A program made the position numbers and the translations under genes. The notes under the pieces are model-generated. The model did no database searches. It had not been told where the DNA came from and saw only the letters and a program-made list of their open reading frames with translations. A DNA stretch of 11,694 bases. Source: Acidimicrobiales bacterium. GTDB taxonomy: Bacteria; Actinomycetota; Acidimicrobiia; Acidimicrobiales; Poriferisodalaceae. Location: the NCBI GenBank assembly GCA_020439485.1, contig JAGQSP010000257.1:1-11694 (forward strand), read 5' to 3'. This document shows positions 5,896-11,694 of this stretch, piece by piece. How positions within the stretch are numbered: position 1 is the stretch's first letter; every line of letters starts with the position of its first letter.

Positions 5896-7698
5896 TCAGG
5901 TGTCGCGCTTGGTACCCACACCCTTGGCTGCTGCGAACCGCGGCAGCGAGATGGTCGCCGAGCTCCACTGACCCTCTACCTGCAGCAGGCGAAGGTCGGC
6001 TGCGTTCGAGTCGAGCCACGACGCAACACAGATGATCTCGTCGGCTGCCGAACCGTCGAGTACCGGACCGAATGGCCCAGCGGGCTCGGGCCCGGGTGCG
6101 CCGATGTCTGTAGGTGAAAACAGGGGCACGTCGCCGTCGGTGCTCCAGGTGTTGACCAGGCGCCCGGCAACGATCTCTGCGCCGCCGCGGCCGGGCTGCT
6201 CGACCACCAGGCGGCCGGCGCGCTGCATACGAGCGAACAGGTGTGAGCGCCTGAGGATGGCCGCCAGCGCGGCAGCTCGGTCGCGGGTCTCTGCCGCTTC
6301 TTCGAAGCGTTCGGCCAGCGCCAGAGCATGCATACGATCGGCCAGCCGACCGAGTAGGCGCTCGGGGTGCTGGGTCAACTCGGTGGTTACCTGGGCCGTG
6401 ATCTGTGCGTATTGGTTTAGGGGTGTGAAGCCGGTGCACGGGCATGCGCTGGCGCCCAGTTGTGCGGTGGCACAAGGGCCGGATTCAGATCGCGAAGATG
6501 GTCTGCTGGTGCAGCGCCTGAGGCTGGTGACCGAGTGGATGGCGTCGATGGCGGCTGTGGCCGCGCGCCGCGACCTGACCGGCCCCAGGTAGAGGGCACC
6601 GTCGCTCTTGGGTCGCGTCACGACCGACAGCCGGGGAAACTGCTCGTTCAACGTCAACTTGAGGTAGACGTACTTGGAAGGTGACTTTCCGACACGGTTG
6701 AACCGCGGTGAGTGTTGCTGGATGAGGCGTATCTCGGTGACCTCGGGTTCGAGAGGACCTGGGCATTCGATGTGGGAGATGTGGTCGGTCTCGCGAAGCA
6801 GTTGGGCGACCTTTCGCCTGCGGTCGCTGGAGAAGTACGACCGCACGCGCGATCTCAGGTTGGTGGCCTTGCCTACATAGAGAATGCGGCCGTCGCGATC
6901 GTGGAACATGTACACGCCGGGGCGGCGCGGAAGGCCGTCTGTGAGCGCCAGCTTGTGGACCTGGGGGTGGGTGTCTATGCCCGGCAGATTGAGCAGATCG
7001 TCGAGACCCAGAACGCCGAAGAAGGCCGCTCGCTCGAACAAGAAGTGCAACAGGTCGGCGGTGGCCATGGCGTCGTCGAGGGCTCTGTGGGTGGGCCGGT
7101 GGTCGAGCCTGAGGCGATCGGCAAGGGTGCCCAGTTTCATGTTGGGTACCTCGTCGACCAGCAGCCGCCTGGCGATCGCAAGCGTGTCTACGACGTGGTT
7201 GCCCAGACGCTGACGCCCCGATCGCTCGAGGGCCGAGTTGATGAACGCCAGGTCGAAGCCGACGTTGTGGCCCACGACCACCGAGTCGCCGATGAACTCG
7301 AGCAAGCTGGGCAGGACCGACTCGATCCGTGGAGCCCGCAGCACCATGGCCTGGGTGATGCCGGTGAGCACGGTTATCTCGGCAGGGATCCGGATGCCGG
7401 GGTTGACCATGGTCTGGAAGGTCCCCAGCGCCTCTCCGCCGCAGACCTTGACGGCGCCGATCTCGGTGATGCGGTCGTCGTTGCGGTTGCCGCCCGTGGT
7501 CTCGAGGTCGATCACGCAGAACGTCACCTGGTGCAGGGGCACGCCCAAATCGTCGAACGAGCGCTGCGAACCGGGGGAGTGGGTGCGAGGTGATGCGCGG
7601 TGGGTCACTACACGTTCGGCCGCCGGCCGGCCGAACAGCACCTGGTCGAAGGATGACTGGTCGAAGGATGGTTGATTGAAGAGCGTCCCTGAGTCCAC
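5896..7698 (-). CDS. DnaQ-like 3'-5' exonuclease fused to UvrC-type GIY-YIG endonuclease
   Basis: This 600-aa protein is of the Mycobacterium Rv2191 type, probably acting in DNA repair. The DEDDh exonuclease domain (about 58-225) has Exo I D64-L-E66 in VIDLETTGG, Exo II D149 in GHNVGFD, and Exo III H204 and D209 in HRALDD. A GIY-YIG nuclease domain follows (about 255-340): PGVYMF, then ILYVGKATNLRSRVRSYF (272-289, with the catalytic-type Arg), and EVTEIRLIQQHSPRFNR. A cysteine region (C396, C409, C419, C421) precedes a UVR-like helical motif (about 452-477) and a C-terminal part of unknown role. The UvrC C-terminal RNase H-like domain is absent, so it resembles Cho more than full UvrC. I chose the GTG at 7698 because AGGG lies 8 nt upstream and a pentad-repeat N-terminus stays in frame. 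The GTG at 7608 (570 aa) is the alternative, since homology starts at QRSFDDLG. Confidence 0.88.
   Translation of the reverse strand: MDSGTLFNQPSFDQSSFDQVLFGRPAAERVVTHRASPRTHSPGSQRSFDDLGVPLHQVTFCVIDLETTGGNRNDDRITEIGAVKVCGGEALGTFQTMVNPGIRIPAEITVLTGITQAMVLRAPRIESVLPSLLEFIGDSVVVGHNVGFDLAFINSALERSGRQRLGNHVVDTLAIARRLLVDEVPNMKLGTLADRLRLDHRPTHRALDDAMATADLLHFLFERAAFFGVLGLDDLLNLPGIDTHPQVHKLALTDGLPRRPGVYMFHDRDGRILYVGKATNLRSRVRSYFSSDRRRKVAQLLRETDHISHIECPGPLEPEVTEIRLIQQHSPRFNRVGKSPSKYVYLKLTLNEQFPRLSVVTRPKSDGALYLGPVRSRRAATAAIDAIHSVTSLRRCTSRPSSRSESGPCATAQLGASACPCTGFTPLNQYAQITAQVTTELTQHPERLLGRLADRMHALALAERFEEAAETRDRAAALAAILRRSHLFARMQRAGRLVVEQPGRGGAEIVAGRLVNTWSTDGDVPLFSPTDIGAPGPEPAGPFGPVLDGSAADEIICVASWLDSNAADLRLLQVEGQWSSATISLPRFAAAKGVGTKRDT
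7614..7636 (-). repeat. perfect 9-bp inverted repeat near the start of the exonuclease fusion gene
   Basis: GTTCGGCCG and CGGCCGAAC are separated by 5 bp (CCGGC). With the downstream start (7608) this would be a hairpin or operator just before the start codon; with the upstream start (7698) it lies inside codons for LFGRPAAER. It is far longer than neighbouring chance palindromes, although GC-rich DNA raises the background. Confidence 0.5.
7641..7670 (-). repeat. 15-bp tandem repeat encoding xSFDQ pentads
   Basis: Two copies of a 15-bp unit, identical at 14 positions (CTGGTCGAAGGATG on the plus strand), lie end to end, with a looser third copy at 7671-7685 and a pentad-like fourth unit (VLFGR) on the other side. 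Read as protein they give TLFNQ, PSFDQ, SSFDQ and VLFGR. Keeping Phe in the third place while other codons differ favours translation of this stretch and so the start at 7698. Alternatively, the units could be regulator-binding iterons. Confidence 0.6.
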
Positions 7699-7731
7699 GG
7701 CATCGACCCTAAGGAGGGGGTGGGACGGCGT

Positions 7732-7785: not shown

Positions 7786-9225
7786 ATGGATGCCGACGCT
7801 GATGCAAGCGCTACCGCCGACCTGGGTCGCGAACTCAGGGACGAGCTGAGGCCCGCGATCGAGAGCGCATTCCACGTCGCCCGCTCGTGCGCTCGCAACA
7901 CCAAGTCGAGCATCGAGGTGCCAGCCGCCATCCGCCCTTTCCTGACCTTCGCGAAGCTTCCTCCCAGAGCACTCGACATCGGTCGCGAGGCCGTCGACGC
8001 CGATGAGGCGTTCAGGAAACACGTCGTATCGCTGACCGAAGAACACGAGGTCGGCGAGCTGGGCTGGCTGTGGCTGGACCGCCCCGATGGTTGGGCGCAG
8101 AGGTTGGCCGACGCCGAAGGCGACGCGATCGATCGCAGGCGCAGCGCCGATGCCGAGCTGAGGGCCAAGGCCCTCGAGCGCCAGGTGCAGCGCCTGGAAC
8201 TGGATCACCAGAACGCCAAGGAGGCATTGGTCGCGGTAGAGGAGGCCAGAGACCAACTCGACCGCTCGCTGGCCCATGCCCGGGCCGAACTCGAGCGGAT
8301 TCAGGCCGAGCACGACCATGCGGTCAACGAGCGCGACGAACTGCGGGACCGGGTGACCAAGCTCGATCGCCGGGCGACCAGGGCCGAGAAGGGCCTGGGC
8401 GAGGAGCGGGCCAAGGTAAGACAGCTCCAAGTCGAGCTCGATCAGGCCGTCGCCTCGGCCGGACAGGCGATAGACGCCGCGATGTCGATGGGGCTCGACG
8501 ACCTCGACACCACTGCCATGTCGGCCGAGGCTCCACCCGACATCGTCGACGTGCCAACCCCGGCGCGCGACGACGGTTCCGACACACTCGGGGCCGCCGA
8601 CGCCATCGCCGCTGCCGCCGACCTGACAGCGTCTTTGGCAGACGCCCTGCGCCGGGCGGCCGCCCACCTGAGACCCGACGCCGCCACCCCGGACGTCGCC
8701 ATCCCCGACGGTGCCGCCCAGGACGACGCAGCAGCGGGTCGGGCAGTGGTGGAAGGCCCGGTCCGGCCGCCACGGCCCAAACGGACCCCCTTGCGGATGG
8801 CCAGAGGGGTGCCTGACGACTCGGTCGATGGTGTGGCGGATCTGATCGAGGTTCCCGGCATCAGGGTGGTCGTCGATGGCTACAACGTGGCAAAAACCGG
8901 CTGGCCCGACCTCGATCTGGCTTTGCAGCGCCAACGTCTGTTGACAGGCATCGCTTCCAAACTGGTCGCCACCAACGTCGTCGTCGACGTCGTGTTCGAC
9001 GGAGCAGACGTGGTGGCCAGGCCATCGACCAACTCGCGGAACCTGCGGGTGACCTGGTCGCCGCCCGGCGTCGTCGCCGACGACGTGATCATCGAAATGG
9101 TTGAAGGGATCGCGGCCGCTACCCCTGTGCTGGTGGTGTCGAGCGATCACGAGGTGCAATACCGCGCCGCCCGATTGGGCGCGAACATCGCCGGCAGCCC
9201 GGCCTTCTTCCTCTGGATGCGCTGA
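7786..9225 (+). CDS. coiled-coil protein with C-terminal YacP-like NYN ribonuclease domain
   Basis: This 479-aa protein has three parts. Residues 10-100 form a helical N-terminal region with an actinobacterial-type FR..V (FRKHV, 76-80) and GWLWLDRPDGW (93-103). A long charged coiled coil spans about 108-225. A low-complexity, Ala/Asp/Pro-rich linker (245-340) leads to a NYN (PIN-like) domain (about 355-479). The domain keeps its acidic metal-site pattern: VVVDGYNVAK (361-370, D364), VVFDGAD (402-408, D405), ADDVIIEMV (431-439, D432/D433) and VSSDHEV (451-457, D454). NYN proteins of the YacP/Rae1 group cleave RNA, Rae1 on the ribosome in Bacillus subtilis; that activity here is inference. The ATG at 7786 was chosen over a GTG at 7720 because an AAGGAGG lies only two bases before that GTG. 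The gene is divergent from the exonuclease fusion. Confidence 0.85.
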   Translation: MDADADASATADLGRELRDELRPAIESAFHVARSCARNTKSSIEVPAAIRPFLTFAKLPPRALDIGREAVDADEAFRKHVVSLTEEHEVGELGWLWLDRPDGWAQRLADAEGDAIDRRRSADAELRAKALERQVQRLELDHQNAKEALVAVEEARDQLDRSLAHARAELERIQAEHDHAVNERDELRDRVTKLDRRATRAEKGLGEERAKVRQLQVELDQAVASAGQAIDAAMSMGLDDLDTTAMSAEAPPDIVDVPTPARDDGSDTLGAADAIAAAADLTASLADALRRAAAHLRPDAATPDVAIPDGAAQDDAAAGRAVVEGPVRPPRPKRTPLRMARGVPDDSVDGVADLIEVPGIRVVVDGYNVAKTGWPDLDLALQRQRLLTGIASKLVATNVVVDVVFDGADVVARPSTNSRNLRVTWSPPGVVADDVIIEMVEGIAAATPVLVVSSDHEVQYRAARLGANIAGSPAFFLWMR

Positions 9226-9250
9226 CGCCTGCGAGGCCTTTGGCCACTTG

Positions 9251-9264
9251 CGAACAGGTGTTCG
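9251..9264. promoter_or_regulatory. LexA-binding SOS box
   Basis: CGAACAGGTGTTCG matches the Gram-positive SOS box consensus CGAAC-RNRY-GTTCG at every position and has 6-bp arms around GG. It lies within a possible promoter: TTGCGA (9248-9253) and CAGGAT (9271-9276) are 17 bp apart, and an extended TGCTAT-type -10 at 9282-9287 is an alternative. The next genes downstream are the tetra-cysteine gene, queG and the mannosyltransferase. No leftward gene starts near it. Confidence 0.6.
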
Positions 9265-9301
9265 ATGCGGCAGGATTGCTCTGCTATCCCAGCACGGCTG
9301 T

Positions 9302-9377
9302 GCCATCTCAGGATGGCTGTCCCACCCCCGTCGTACCGTCCGCGAGTAGCCGAAACAACCGGGTCGATCAGTCGACC
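9302..9377 (+). promoter_or_regulatory. leader with two hairpins sharing a TCAG loop
   Basis: Two perfect 6-bp hairpins with the same 4-nt loop TCAG lie in the leader: GCCATC/GATGGC (9302-9317) and GGTCGA/TCGACC (9362-9377). The second ends seven bases before the AGGAGG ribosome binding site of the tetra-cysteine gene. No T-run follows either of them, so they do not look like terminators. They may be protein-binding RNA hairpins or chance structures. Confidence 0.35.
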
Positions 9378-9384
9378 GCAGCCC

Positions 9385-9390
9385 AGGAGG
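9385..9390 (+). promoter_or_regulatory. ribosome binding site of the tetra-cysteine gene
   Basis: A perfect AGGAGG lies 8 nt before the ATG at 9399. It is the strongest ribosome binding site in the window and fixes this start against an in-frame ATG at 9240 that would read through the SOS box. Confidence 0.8.
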
Positions 9391-9398
9391 CCGCAGAC

Positions 9399-9629
9399 AT
9401 GTCAGTCGGTTCGAGCCGAGACCAACCCCGCCGTCACCTAGCCCTCGTCATCGACTGCGACATCTGTGTGGCGCGCCGCACAGATGCCTGCCAAGACTGC
9501 ATGGTCACGTACCTGGTACGCGACGACCACGACGAGGCGGTGGTGATCGATCTCGCCGAAGCGCGGGCGCTGAAGGCGCTCGGCGCCGGGGGATTGGTGC
9601 CCAAGCTCAGGCACCGTGCCGAGGTCTGA
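9399..9629 (+). CDS. small tetra-cysteine protein of unknown function
   Basis: This 76-aa product has a CxxC-x6-CxxC motif (C20, C23, C31, C34; DCDICVARRTDACQDC), which suits one zinc ion or an Fe-S cluster. A short acidic strand-rich part (VVIDLAEARALKALGAGG, about 51-68) and a basic end (LVPKLRHRAEV) follow. I recall similar small actinobacterial proteins ending GAGLVPPLRHR-like, none with a known function; this is memory, not a search. The start is fixed by AGGAGG. The next gene, queG, begins 13 bp after the stop (or overlaps it if queG uses the GTG at 9616), so translation may be coupled. Upstream lies the SOS box. A role as partner or metal carrier for the iron-sulfur enzyme QueG is speculation. 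Confidence 0.75.
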   Translation: MSVGSSRDQPRRHLALVIDCDICVARRTDACQDCMVTYLVRDDHDEAVVIDLAEARALKALGAGGLVPKLRHRAEV

Positions 9630-9642
9630 GCACAATGGTCAT

Positions 9643-10764
9643 GTGCCCACCCTCGAATTCGCCCACCTAGCCGACCTGGCCTCGGCCTCGGGCATCGATG
9701 CCTTCGGCGCCACCGATGCGTCCGAGTTCACCGATGCCCGGCAGGTCATCGAGCAGCGCAAGGCCAGGGGTCTGCACGGGGGCATGTGGTTCACCTACGG
9801 CAGACCGGAGCGTTCGTCCGATCCATCTCGCATATTGCCCGGTGCGAAGACGATTCTGGTCGGCGCTCTTGCCTACTACCGGCCACAGCCACCGTCGCCG
9901 ACCGAGGCCAAGGCGCCCGCGCTAGTCGGACGGTTCGTGTGGCAGCCGTTCTACGACGAGCTGGCCGCGCGCCTCGAGGTCGTCGCGTCGCACCTGCGCG
10001 CCGCAGGCGCCCGGGCCGTGGTGGTGCTCGACGACAACCGGCTGATAGACCGCGCTGCGGCTCATCGAGCGGGCCTGGGGTGGTTCGGCAAGAACACGAT
10101 GTTGTTGCTGGACGGTGCGGGCAGCTGGTTCGTGCTGGGATCGATAGTCACCGATGCCGAGGTCGACGTCACAGCCAGCACGGTCCCAGACGGGTGCGGA
10201 ACCTGCGTGCGGTGCCAGATCGCATGCCCCACGGGCGCCCTCGACACCGCGGGCGAGCTCGACGCCAGACGGTGCCTGGCGTGGCTGCTCCAGGCCGATG
10301 GAGTGTTTCCGGCCGAACACCGGGTTGCCCTGGGTGCGCGCATCTACGGCTGTGACGACTGCCAGGAGGTCTGCCCGCCGAACGTGCGCTTCGTCCGCAG
10401 CCGCGACGACTCGGCGCAGGCCACCCCACAGCAGGCCTGGTCAGATGCGGTCCACATGCTCAACAGCACAGACGATCAGCTGTTGGACAGTCATGGCGCC
10501 TGGTACATACCCAGGCGCCGTCCCGAGTACCTGCGGCGCAACGCGTTGGTGGTGCTGGCCAACGTCGCCGACCCTCAAGACCCTGATATCGCAGACGTCA
10601 TCGAGCGCTGCCTGTCGAGCGATCAGGCGCTGGTGGTCGCCCACGCCGTATGGGCGGCGAAGCGTCTGGGGCTCGATCGGCTGGTCGATTGCATCGCCGC
10701 CGAGGTCGCGTCCGACCCGATTGTGCAAGCCGAACTCGCTCGACACGTCGACGCGCGCCGCTAG
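9643..10764 (+). CDS. queG: epoxyqueuosine reductase
   Basis: This 373-aa enzyme carries out the last step of queuosine synthesis, reducing epoxyqueuosine in tRNA (anticodons GUN) with cobalamin and two [4Fe-4S] clusters. The N-terminal cobalamin-binding part includes GRFVWQPFYDEL (about 96-107), a family Asp near 130 and HRAGLGWFGKNTMLL (141-155). The ferredoxin-like part has CGTCVRCQIACPTGAL (185-200; C185, C188, C191, C195), C211, and CDDCQEVCP (C237, C240, C244). The C-terminus holds the HEAT-like YLRRNALVVLANV (296-308) found in long QueG. I chose the GTG at 9643 because homology begins there and the preceding codons are poor in third-position GC. A GTG at 9616 would add nine residues and overlap the upstream gene. 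The ribosome binding site is weak, suggesting coupling. No other queuosine genes are in the window. Confidence 0.93.
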   Translation: MPTLEFAHLADLASASGIDAFGATDASEFTDARQVIEQRKARGLHGGMWFTYGRPERSSDPSRILPGAKTILVGALAYYRPQPPSPTEAKAPALVGRFVWQPFYDELAARLEVVASHLRAAGARAVVVLDDNRLIDRAAAHRAGLGWFGKNTMLLLDGAGSWFVLGSIVTDAEVDVTASTVPDGCGTCVRCQIACPTGALDTAGELDARRCLAWLLQADGVFPAEHRVALGARIYGCDDCQEVCPPNVRFVRSRDDSAQATPQQAWSDAVHMLNSTDDQLLDSHGAWYIPRRRPEYLRRNALVVLANVADPQDPDIADVIERCLSSDQALVVAHAVWAAKRLGLDRLVDCIAAEVASDPIVQAELARHVDARR

Positions 10765-10774
10765 GGTCCATCCG

Positions 10775-11694
10775 GTGGTTCGCCATCTTCTGGTCACCAA
10801 CGACTTCCCGCCCAAGGTCGGCGGGATCCAGGCATATCTGTGGGAGCTGTGGCGCCGTCTGCCGGCAGACGAGGTCACGGTTCTGACAACCCCCTACGAA
10901 GGGGCTGCCGAATTCGACGCTCAGCAGGCCTTCCGTGTCGACCGGGCCCGAGAGCCTGTGCTGCTGCCTCGTCCGGGCATGGCCGGGCGAATCGACCGTT
11001 TGGCCGACGAGGTGGGTGCCGAGTTGGTGGTGATCGACCCTGCTCTGCCCCTGGGTTGGGTAGGGCCATCGCTGCGCCATCCCTATGCCGTGGTGCTCCA
11101 CGGTGCCGAGGTGGCCGTGCCTGGCCGGCTGCCCATCAGCTCGCAGGCCCTGGCCCGCGTTGTCCGCCACGCTCGGTTCGTCATCGGGGCGGGCCAATAT
11201 GCGGTGGCTGAGGCCGAACGCAGCGCCGGCCGTCGGCTGGCTTCGCTGCATGTACCGCCCGGCGTAGACACCGATCGCTTCTCGCCTCTCGACGAATCCC
11301 AACGCGTGGCTGCGCGCCGCCGGTTTGGCGTCGAGCCCAACGCCCCCCTGATCGTGGGGGTCAGTCGTCTCGTGCCCCGCAAGGGATTCGACGTGTTGAT
11401 CGAGGCCGCCGCTCAATTGGAGCCGCGCCACCCGGGGCTCCGAGTCCTGATCGGAGGCGCTGGTCGCGATCGCAAGCGCCTCGAGAAGCGGGCCGCCGCG
11501 TCGGGGGCCCCGGTCGAGTTCCTCGGCCGTTTCGACGAGGCCGACAAGCCCGCGGTGTACGGCATGGCCGACGTGTCGGCGATGCTGTGTCGGGTCAGGT
11601 GGGGTGGCCTCGAACAAGAGGGCTTCGGAATCGTGTTTCTCGAAGCGGCGGCGGCCGGAGTGCCGCAGGTGGCGGGCCAAAGCGGCGGCGCAGC
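10775..11694 (+). CDS. GT4 glycosyltransferase, PimB-like mannosyltransferase (3' end cut)
   Basis: The first 306 residues are in the window and the gene runs off the right edge. It resembles actinobacterial PimB (Rv2188c), the GDP-mannose-dependent enzyme that adds the second mannose to phosphatidylinositol mannosides at the inner face of the membrane. Supporting motifs are VTNDFPPKVGGIQAYL (7-22), the glycine-rich acceptor loop, HGAEV (109-113), VPPGVD (160-165), GVSRLVPRKGFDVLIEA (195-211, with R198 and K203 for the nucleotide sugar) and the EX7E motif E282-GFGIVFL-E290. The GTG at 10775 has AGGG eight bases upstream, overlapping the queG stop 10 bp before, so the two genes are probably co-transcribed. 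The family is sure; the exact acceptor is not, as GT4 members are similar to each other. Confidence 0.85.
   Translation, partial: MVRHLLVTNDFPPKVGGIQAYLWELWRRLPADEVTVLTTPYEGAAEFDAQQAFRVDRAREPVLLPRPGMAGRIDRLADEVGAELVVIDPALPLGWVGPSLRHPYAVVLHGAEVAVPGRLPISSQALARVVRHARFVIGAGQYAVAEAERSAGRRLASLHVPPGVDTDRFSPLDESQRVAARRRFGVEPNAPLIVGVSRLVPRKGFDVLIEAAAQLEPRHPGLRVLIGGAGRDRKRLEKRAAASGAPVEFLGRFDEADKPAVYGMADVSAMLCRVRWGGLEQEGFGIVFLEAAAAGVPQVAGQSGGA

Follow-up and report, generated by a model that had tools for sequence, protein, structure and literature searches.

In mycobacteria, the RecA-NDp promoter has the consensus tTGTCRgtg-8 nt-TannnT, which can be written as TGTC-N12-TAnnnT (PMC5656591). It is recognized by PafBC (PMC6789036), whose activator is single-stranded DNA (PMC11804915), and several mycobacterial genes are described as having an SOS box in addition to RecA-NDp (PMC8223512). 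A comparable arrangement was found in the window analyzed here, that is, the whole 11,694-nt stretch of contig JAGQSP010000257.1 from an Acidimicrobiales bacterium of the family Poriferisodalaceae, in which an exact SOS box and, downstream of it, a second element (motif M) precede a row of three genes encoding a small four-Cys protein, QueG and a glycosyltransferase. The row probably belongs to a DNA-damage regulon and would be subject to a recA-like double control, with M as the main element and the LexA box as an addition. This assignment draws on what can be seen in the sequence, namely both elements, their sharing with recA, the conservation of M in the order, and a PafBC-type gene pair.

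The first gene of the row (9399–9629, plus strand), recognized as an open reading frame and by a family search of the order, encodes a protein of 76 residues with two C-x2-C pairs (IDCDIC ... CQDC). The four cysteines are invariant in the family and suggest a putative metal site. No Pfam or NCBIfam family matched the protein above its cut-off, and the match to DUF6767 is sub-threshold only (E 0.02; 15.1 bits, cut-off 27); the four-Cys family itself gave 257 matches at E ≤0.001, and 185 of the 298 order genomes contain a member. The second gene is queG, encoding epoxyqueuosine reductase (9643–10764, plus strand; TIGR00276, 225.4 bits against 200, profile positions 3–336 of 337). Its reading frame is open from 9616, and the likely start is the GTG at 9643, 13 nt past the stop codon of the four-Cys gene. 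The third gene, for a GT4-type glycosyltransferase matched by PF00534 and other profiles (10775–11694, plus strand, cut by the window end), begins 10 nt past the queG stop codon. The gene content given in the sequence-only reading is thus borne out by the C-x2-C pairs and the TIGR00276 and PF00534 matches, and the short intergenic spacing suggests that the three genes may form one operon.

The SOS box CGAACAGGTGTTCG (9251–9264, no strand assigned) is the sole exact CGAACNNNNGTTCG inside the window and fits the Gram-positive LexA consensus exactly, as had been claimed. Its 5′ neighbor is an NYN-domain gene, the stop codon of which lies 25 nt before the box. On the other side, exactly 134 nt separate the box from the ATG of the four-Cys gene (9399), which is preceded by AGGAGG, in agreement with the earlier description of a gene with a perfect ribosome binding site at that distance. 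The promoter-like setting that was also ascribed to the box is weak: a sigma-70 consensus scan of 9200–9420 on both strands found no promoter, and the possible weak promoter over the box (9248–9276, plus strand), consisting of TTGCGA (9248–9253), 17 nt and CAGGAT (9271–9276), was picked out by eye at a place where the consensus scan gave no match, and is only a suggestion. The idea that the box governs a short transcript in the gap, rather than the row, is highly improbable; although 134 nt would leave room for such a transcript, Rfam gave no match in 9200–9650 and the promoter scan was empty on either strand. Near-matches to the box are common in the window, where 19 sites with up to two mismatches were counted against 8.9 expected; a chance match had also been considered in the sequence-only reading.

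In the window's assembly (3.9 Mb in 777 contigs, 77% complete), exact CGAACNNNNGTTCG occurs 25 times, against 2 for the reversed pattern; because about 10 of the 25 fall inside probable coding ORFs according to hand labels, the true chance background is higher than 2. Exact boxes lie upstream of recA, imuA′ (NF058630), the gene for error-prone DnaE (dnaE2) and dnaG, before ruvC, a gene recognized by eye from the beginning of its protein sequence, and before four DUF222/HNH-like genes, two of which pass the DUF222 cut-off. The box in the genome's own recA promoter, the inspection of which had been proposed as a check, is of the same type as that at the row, and an exact box precedes recA in all 30 family loci and, among the 29 of 30 order loci that were long enough, in 24. 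The TIGR00498 profile found no match to lexA in the 77%-complete assembly, and a PF01726 match on contig C52, considered as the genome's own lexA, was read instead as a different winged-helix protein. Eight relatives have a lexA match, and the gene could be placed in six of them; a box with at most one mismatch lies upstream in five of the six, exact in three, and one has no box upstream. With a matrix made from the boxes that precede recA and lexA in relatives, the window core ranks second of 256 and the window site is tied for first among the 25 exact sites, with the window's same 14-mer included in the training set. As judged from its enrichment in the genome and its position before recA and before the lexA genes of relatives, the box type is the genuine LexA-type site of this lineage.

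Several other occurrences of the box were recorded. Two exact boxes, 24 nt apart, lie upstream of a gene for an AlkB-type 2OG-Fe(II) oxygenase (L028:710–747). Exact boxes also occur 27 nt before dnaG (L001:1501) and 73 nt before a formate-dehydrogenase-like gene recognized by eye (L031:2818), and a 14-mer identical to that of the window lies just past an apparent tRNA 3′ end (L019:5486–5499).

The conservation of the box in orthologous rows, another check suggested in the sequence-only reading, was not found. In the one same-genus genome compared (G001, loci L033/L148, with L068 apparently representing identical DNA), the gene row is kept and the four-Cys protein is 79% identical, and the intergenic stretch contains no box at up to one mismatch. 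The 230 nt preceding the four-Cys gene were compared at 51 distinct loci, and an exact box is present there in two, the window and L299. The latter was not accepted as an independent second case of a box together with M, as the four-Cys and nuclease genes at L299 diverge from either side of the box, which is more likely to control the nuclease gene. Boxes at about −370, with one mismatch (L164, L174 and L175) or exact (L204), are far upstream of M and were left out of the count. This non-conservation argues against a main role of the SOS box in controlling the row; the box appears to be lineage-specific here, and its own effect is uncertain.

A somewhat less probable explanation, which nevertheless deserves weight, is that the row is under M alone and that the SOS box, matching by chance or as a relic, has no function here. 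The lack of the box in the same-genus genome and its near absence in orthologous rows would agree with this, as would the empty promoter scan around it and the existence of chance matches, which is illustrated by the exact sites (about 10 of 25) within coding ORFs. The box at the row is, however, intergenic, none of the 25 exact sites scores higher, and it lies upstream of M as it does at recA; these features speak against such a reading.

Outside the box, the alignment of the window with G001 contains a conserved element, TGTCCCACCCCCGTCGTACCGT (9318–9339) in the window against TGTCCTACCCCTCGCGTACCTT. This motif M, TGTCCCACC-N7-TACCGT (9318–9339, plus strand, with TAnnnT at 9334–9339), found in the alignment and by pattern and matrix scans, begins 53 nt downstream of the SOS box and is taken as a putative recA-type promoter. 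A second copy, CGTCCCACC-N7-TAGGGT (7706–7727, minus strand), was found by pattern scan before a gene for a DEDDh exonuclease/GIY-YIG (UvrC-like) protein (5899–7680, minus strand; NF005907, 559.8 bits over 454). In the window's genus this nuclease gene lies behind M; in the 13 family loci elsewhere in which its start is covered (L161, L163 and L166–L176), the gene is preceded by an SOS box, which is exact in 11 of the loci and has one mismatch in 2, and in another family (L034) an exact SOS box lies about 70 nt before the gene. M and the SOS box seem to swap as damage controls at the nuclease gene.

In the window's own genome, GTCCYACC-N7-TAnnnT occurs 14 times and its reversed counterpart twice. 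The 14 sites precede recA, the nuclease gene, this row, a polymerase-A gene, eight DUF222/HNH-like genes assigned mostly by resemblance (three were run against Pfam, two being over a cut-off) and two further putative genes. The site at recA (C529:4286–4307 of genome G000) lies 99 nt before the recA match, and the order of elements there is SOS box, M and gene, which is the same layout as that of the row. In the recA region of M. tuberculosis, the SOS box likewise lies upstream of the RecA-NDp element. Across 39 family genomes, the TGTCCYACC form of M was found 66 times, distributed over 18 of the genomes, and its reversed form 5 times, and in eight small family genomes the single strict match to M is the one before this row. 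Thirty family M loci were sampled, of which 9 precede a four-Cys gene, 3 recA, 7 a DUF222-like gene (one of the seven was run against Pfam), 1 the nuclease gene and 2 genes for SbcD-like phosphoesterases, and 8 have no gene assigned. Both SbcD-like proteins exceed the Pfam metallophosphatase cut-off; one was run against NCBIfam, where SbcD stayed below the cut-off. The DUF222/HNH-type genes are multicopy, and some follow an SOS box (L020, L025, L026 and L029) and others motif M (L180, L182, L188, L190 and others).

The relationship between the M sites of recA and those of the four-Cys gene was examined with two matrices. Matrix A, trained on the M sites of four-Cys genes only, was applied upstream of recA and reached a score of at least 12 in all 30 family loci and in 20 of the 29 order loci, the other nine order loci remaining below 12, against 0.42% of 1180 shuffles; at a score of at least 15, the counts were 13 of 30 and 19 of 29, against 0.08% of the shuffles. 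In the family, 17 of the 30 recA sites are a GGTC/AGTC variant with scores of 12.2–13.9, barely above the threshold of 12. Upstream of recA at L223–L236, L239, L242 and L243, M takes the form GGTC/AGTC[CT]GACC, and a one-mismatch SOS box lies 23 nt upstream of the exact one. Matrix B was made from 26 hand-chosen recA sites, with recA loci lacking a clear M and a few near-duplicates left out, and was applied upstream of the four-Cys gene at 51 loci, a set that leaves out four four-Cys genes missed by the search pattern. Scores of at least 15, 12 and 8 were found at 30, 36 and 48 of these loci, against 0.04, 0.27 and 1.45% of the shuffles (n = 2550), respectively; 15 of the 51 loci are below 12 and three below 8, and several carry something other than TAnnnT. 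The locus of Aquihabitans sp. G128 (L073) gave −1.8. Because the loci are related, the counts of M sites are not independent trials, and the specificity of M is a stronger argument. When 80 queG loci were scanned with matrix B on both strands (1,282,040 strand-bases), 12 sites scored at least 15, of which 11 lie before four-Cys genes (7 recognized by pattern and 4 by hand) and 1 before the nuclease gene; ten of the four-Cys genes scored in these loci have no site at this level.

The first gene of the row appears to be the one to which M belongs. In 16 of 25 order loci, queG lies downstream of the four-Cys gene in the same orientation and at a distance of no more than 182 nt. A nuclease gene, not queG, follows the four-Cys gene at L301, and at L302 queG is divergent from the four-Cys gene and M is weak (10.0). 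In six family genomes of genera g4 and g5, queG is present and the four-Cys family is unmatched, and upstream of queG the motif pattern has no match at the loci of these two genera. As M can be retained at the four-Cys gene when the neighbor changes, its true target is more likely to be this gene, and queG would be a frequent passenger that is co-induced.

Within M, TGTC and TAnnnT are 12 nt apart, which is the spacing of RecA-NDp. The RGTG that follows TGTC in RecA-NDp was looked for as well; CCAC occupies this place in the window, and mostly NYAC across the order, so that M is not filed as a member of RecA-NDp. Intermediate forms, TGTCACAGG, TGTCACTGG and TGTCAGACC, are found at the place of M before some recA genes of the order. 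Two genes for WYL proteins also lie in tandem on contig C241 of the genome. The second encodes a PafC-type protein with HTH_PafC (75.2 bits over 32), WYL and WCX that resembles PafBC of known structure (E 5.3e-41); the first, for a WYL-WCX protein, is truncated where the contig begins. Such a tandem pair was found in 9 of 10 family genomes searched. It is likely that M works like a RecA-NDp promoter, on which PafBC would act.

Alternatively, M might be read by another regulator or sigma factor that is not specific to damage, and be merely common to recA and the row. This is unlikely. The deviating RGTG half and the 8 of 30 sampled family sites that have no assigned gene downstream could be accounted for in this way, but M is rare, as the scan of the queG loci indicates (12 sites in 1,282,040 strand-bases), and its named targets are recA, the nuclease, SbcD-like, polymerase-A and DUF222/HNH genes and the four-Cys gene. 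The intermediate forms that take this position upstream of other recA genes and the presence of PafBC-type genes also argue for a damage-related promoter.

Under the double control preferred here, the response would start with the appearance of single-stranded DNA and the activation of PafBC. PafBC would then promote transcription from M (9318–9339), a variant RecA-NDp-type start that would provide the main and conserved control, and the exact LexA box upstream of M would contribute an added SOS control in this lineage. The four-Cys gene would be induced, and queG and the glycosyltransferase gene would be co-transcribed with it. We infer the action of PafBC on M, the binding of LexA to the box and the induction of the genes by damage. 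The DNA-damage control of a small Cys protein and queG that the sequence-only reading had considered is likely, mainly through M, which also precedes recA; the SOS box on which that reading was founded is not conserved, and LexA would be a lineage-specific addition.

A more tentative proposal is that the four-Cys protein could be a DNA-damage-response factor that is conserved across much of the order, expressed from a TGTCNYACC-type PafBC promoter, by which queG may have been brought under damage control. If this is true, the queuosine modification of tRNA would be tied to damage, and decoding may be retuned during repair; the row would offer a concrete case of a tRNA-modification gene that is perhaps tied to DNA damage. 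Apart from this proposal, a conserved unnamed protein emerges as a likely member of the DNA-damage response in a large, mostly uncultured actinobacterial order, and M provides a testable promoter code for the non-SOS damage response of this order. The SOS box alone would mislead here, as the conserved control is probably the second element, M.

A literature search found no paper linking PafBC and queuosine, and no paper joining PafBC with Acidimicrobiales-type names. In Acinetobacter, queH is reported to be repressed in two mutants after mitomycin C (PMC10808703). Compared with the Gram-positive LexA/SOS regulon, the locus has in common the exact CGAACNNNNGTTCG, which is overrepresented in the genome and employed at the genome's own recA, but differs in that the box is not conserved at the row and has no clear overlapping promoter. 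QueG is a full-length match to TIGR00276 over the curated cut-off and differs in being encoded second in a row behind a putative damage-type promoter. The closest likeness is to the double control described for mycobacterial recA, uvrA and uvrC, with which the locus shares an SOS box and TGTC-N12-TAnnnT before the gene, in a genome that encodes PafBC-type proteins. The upstream element is TGTCRGTG in the mycobacterial RecA-NDp as described and TGTCNYACC-like here, and the mycobacterial targets are known repair genes, whereas the predicted target at this locus is an unnamed four-Cys protein accompanied by queG.
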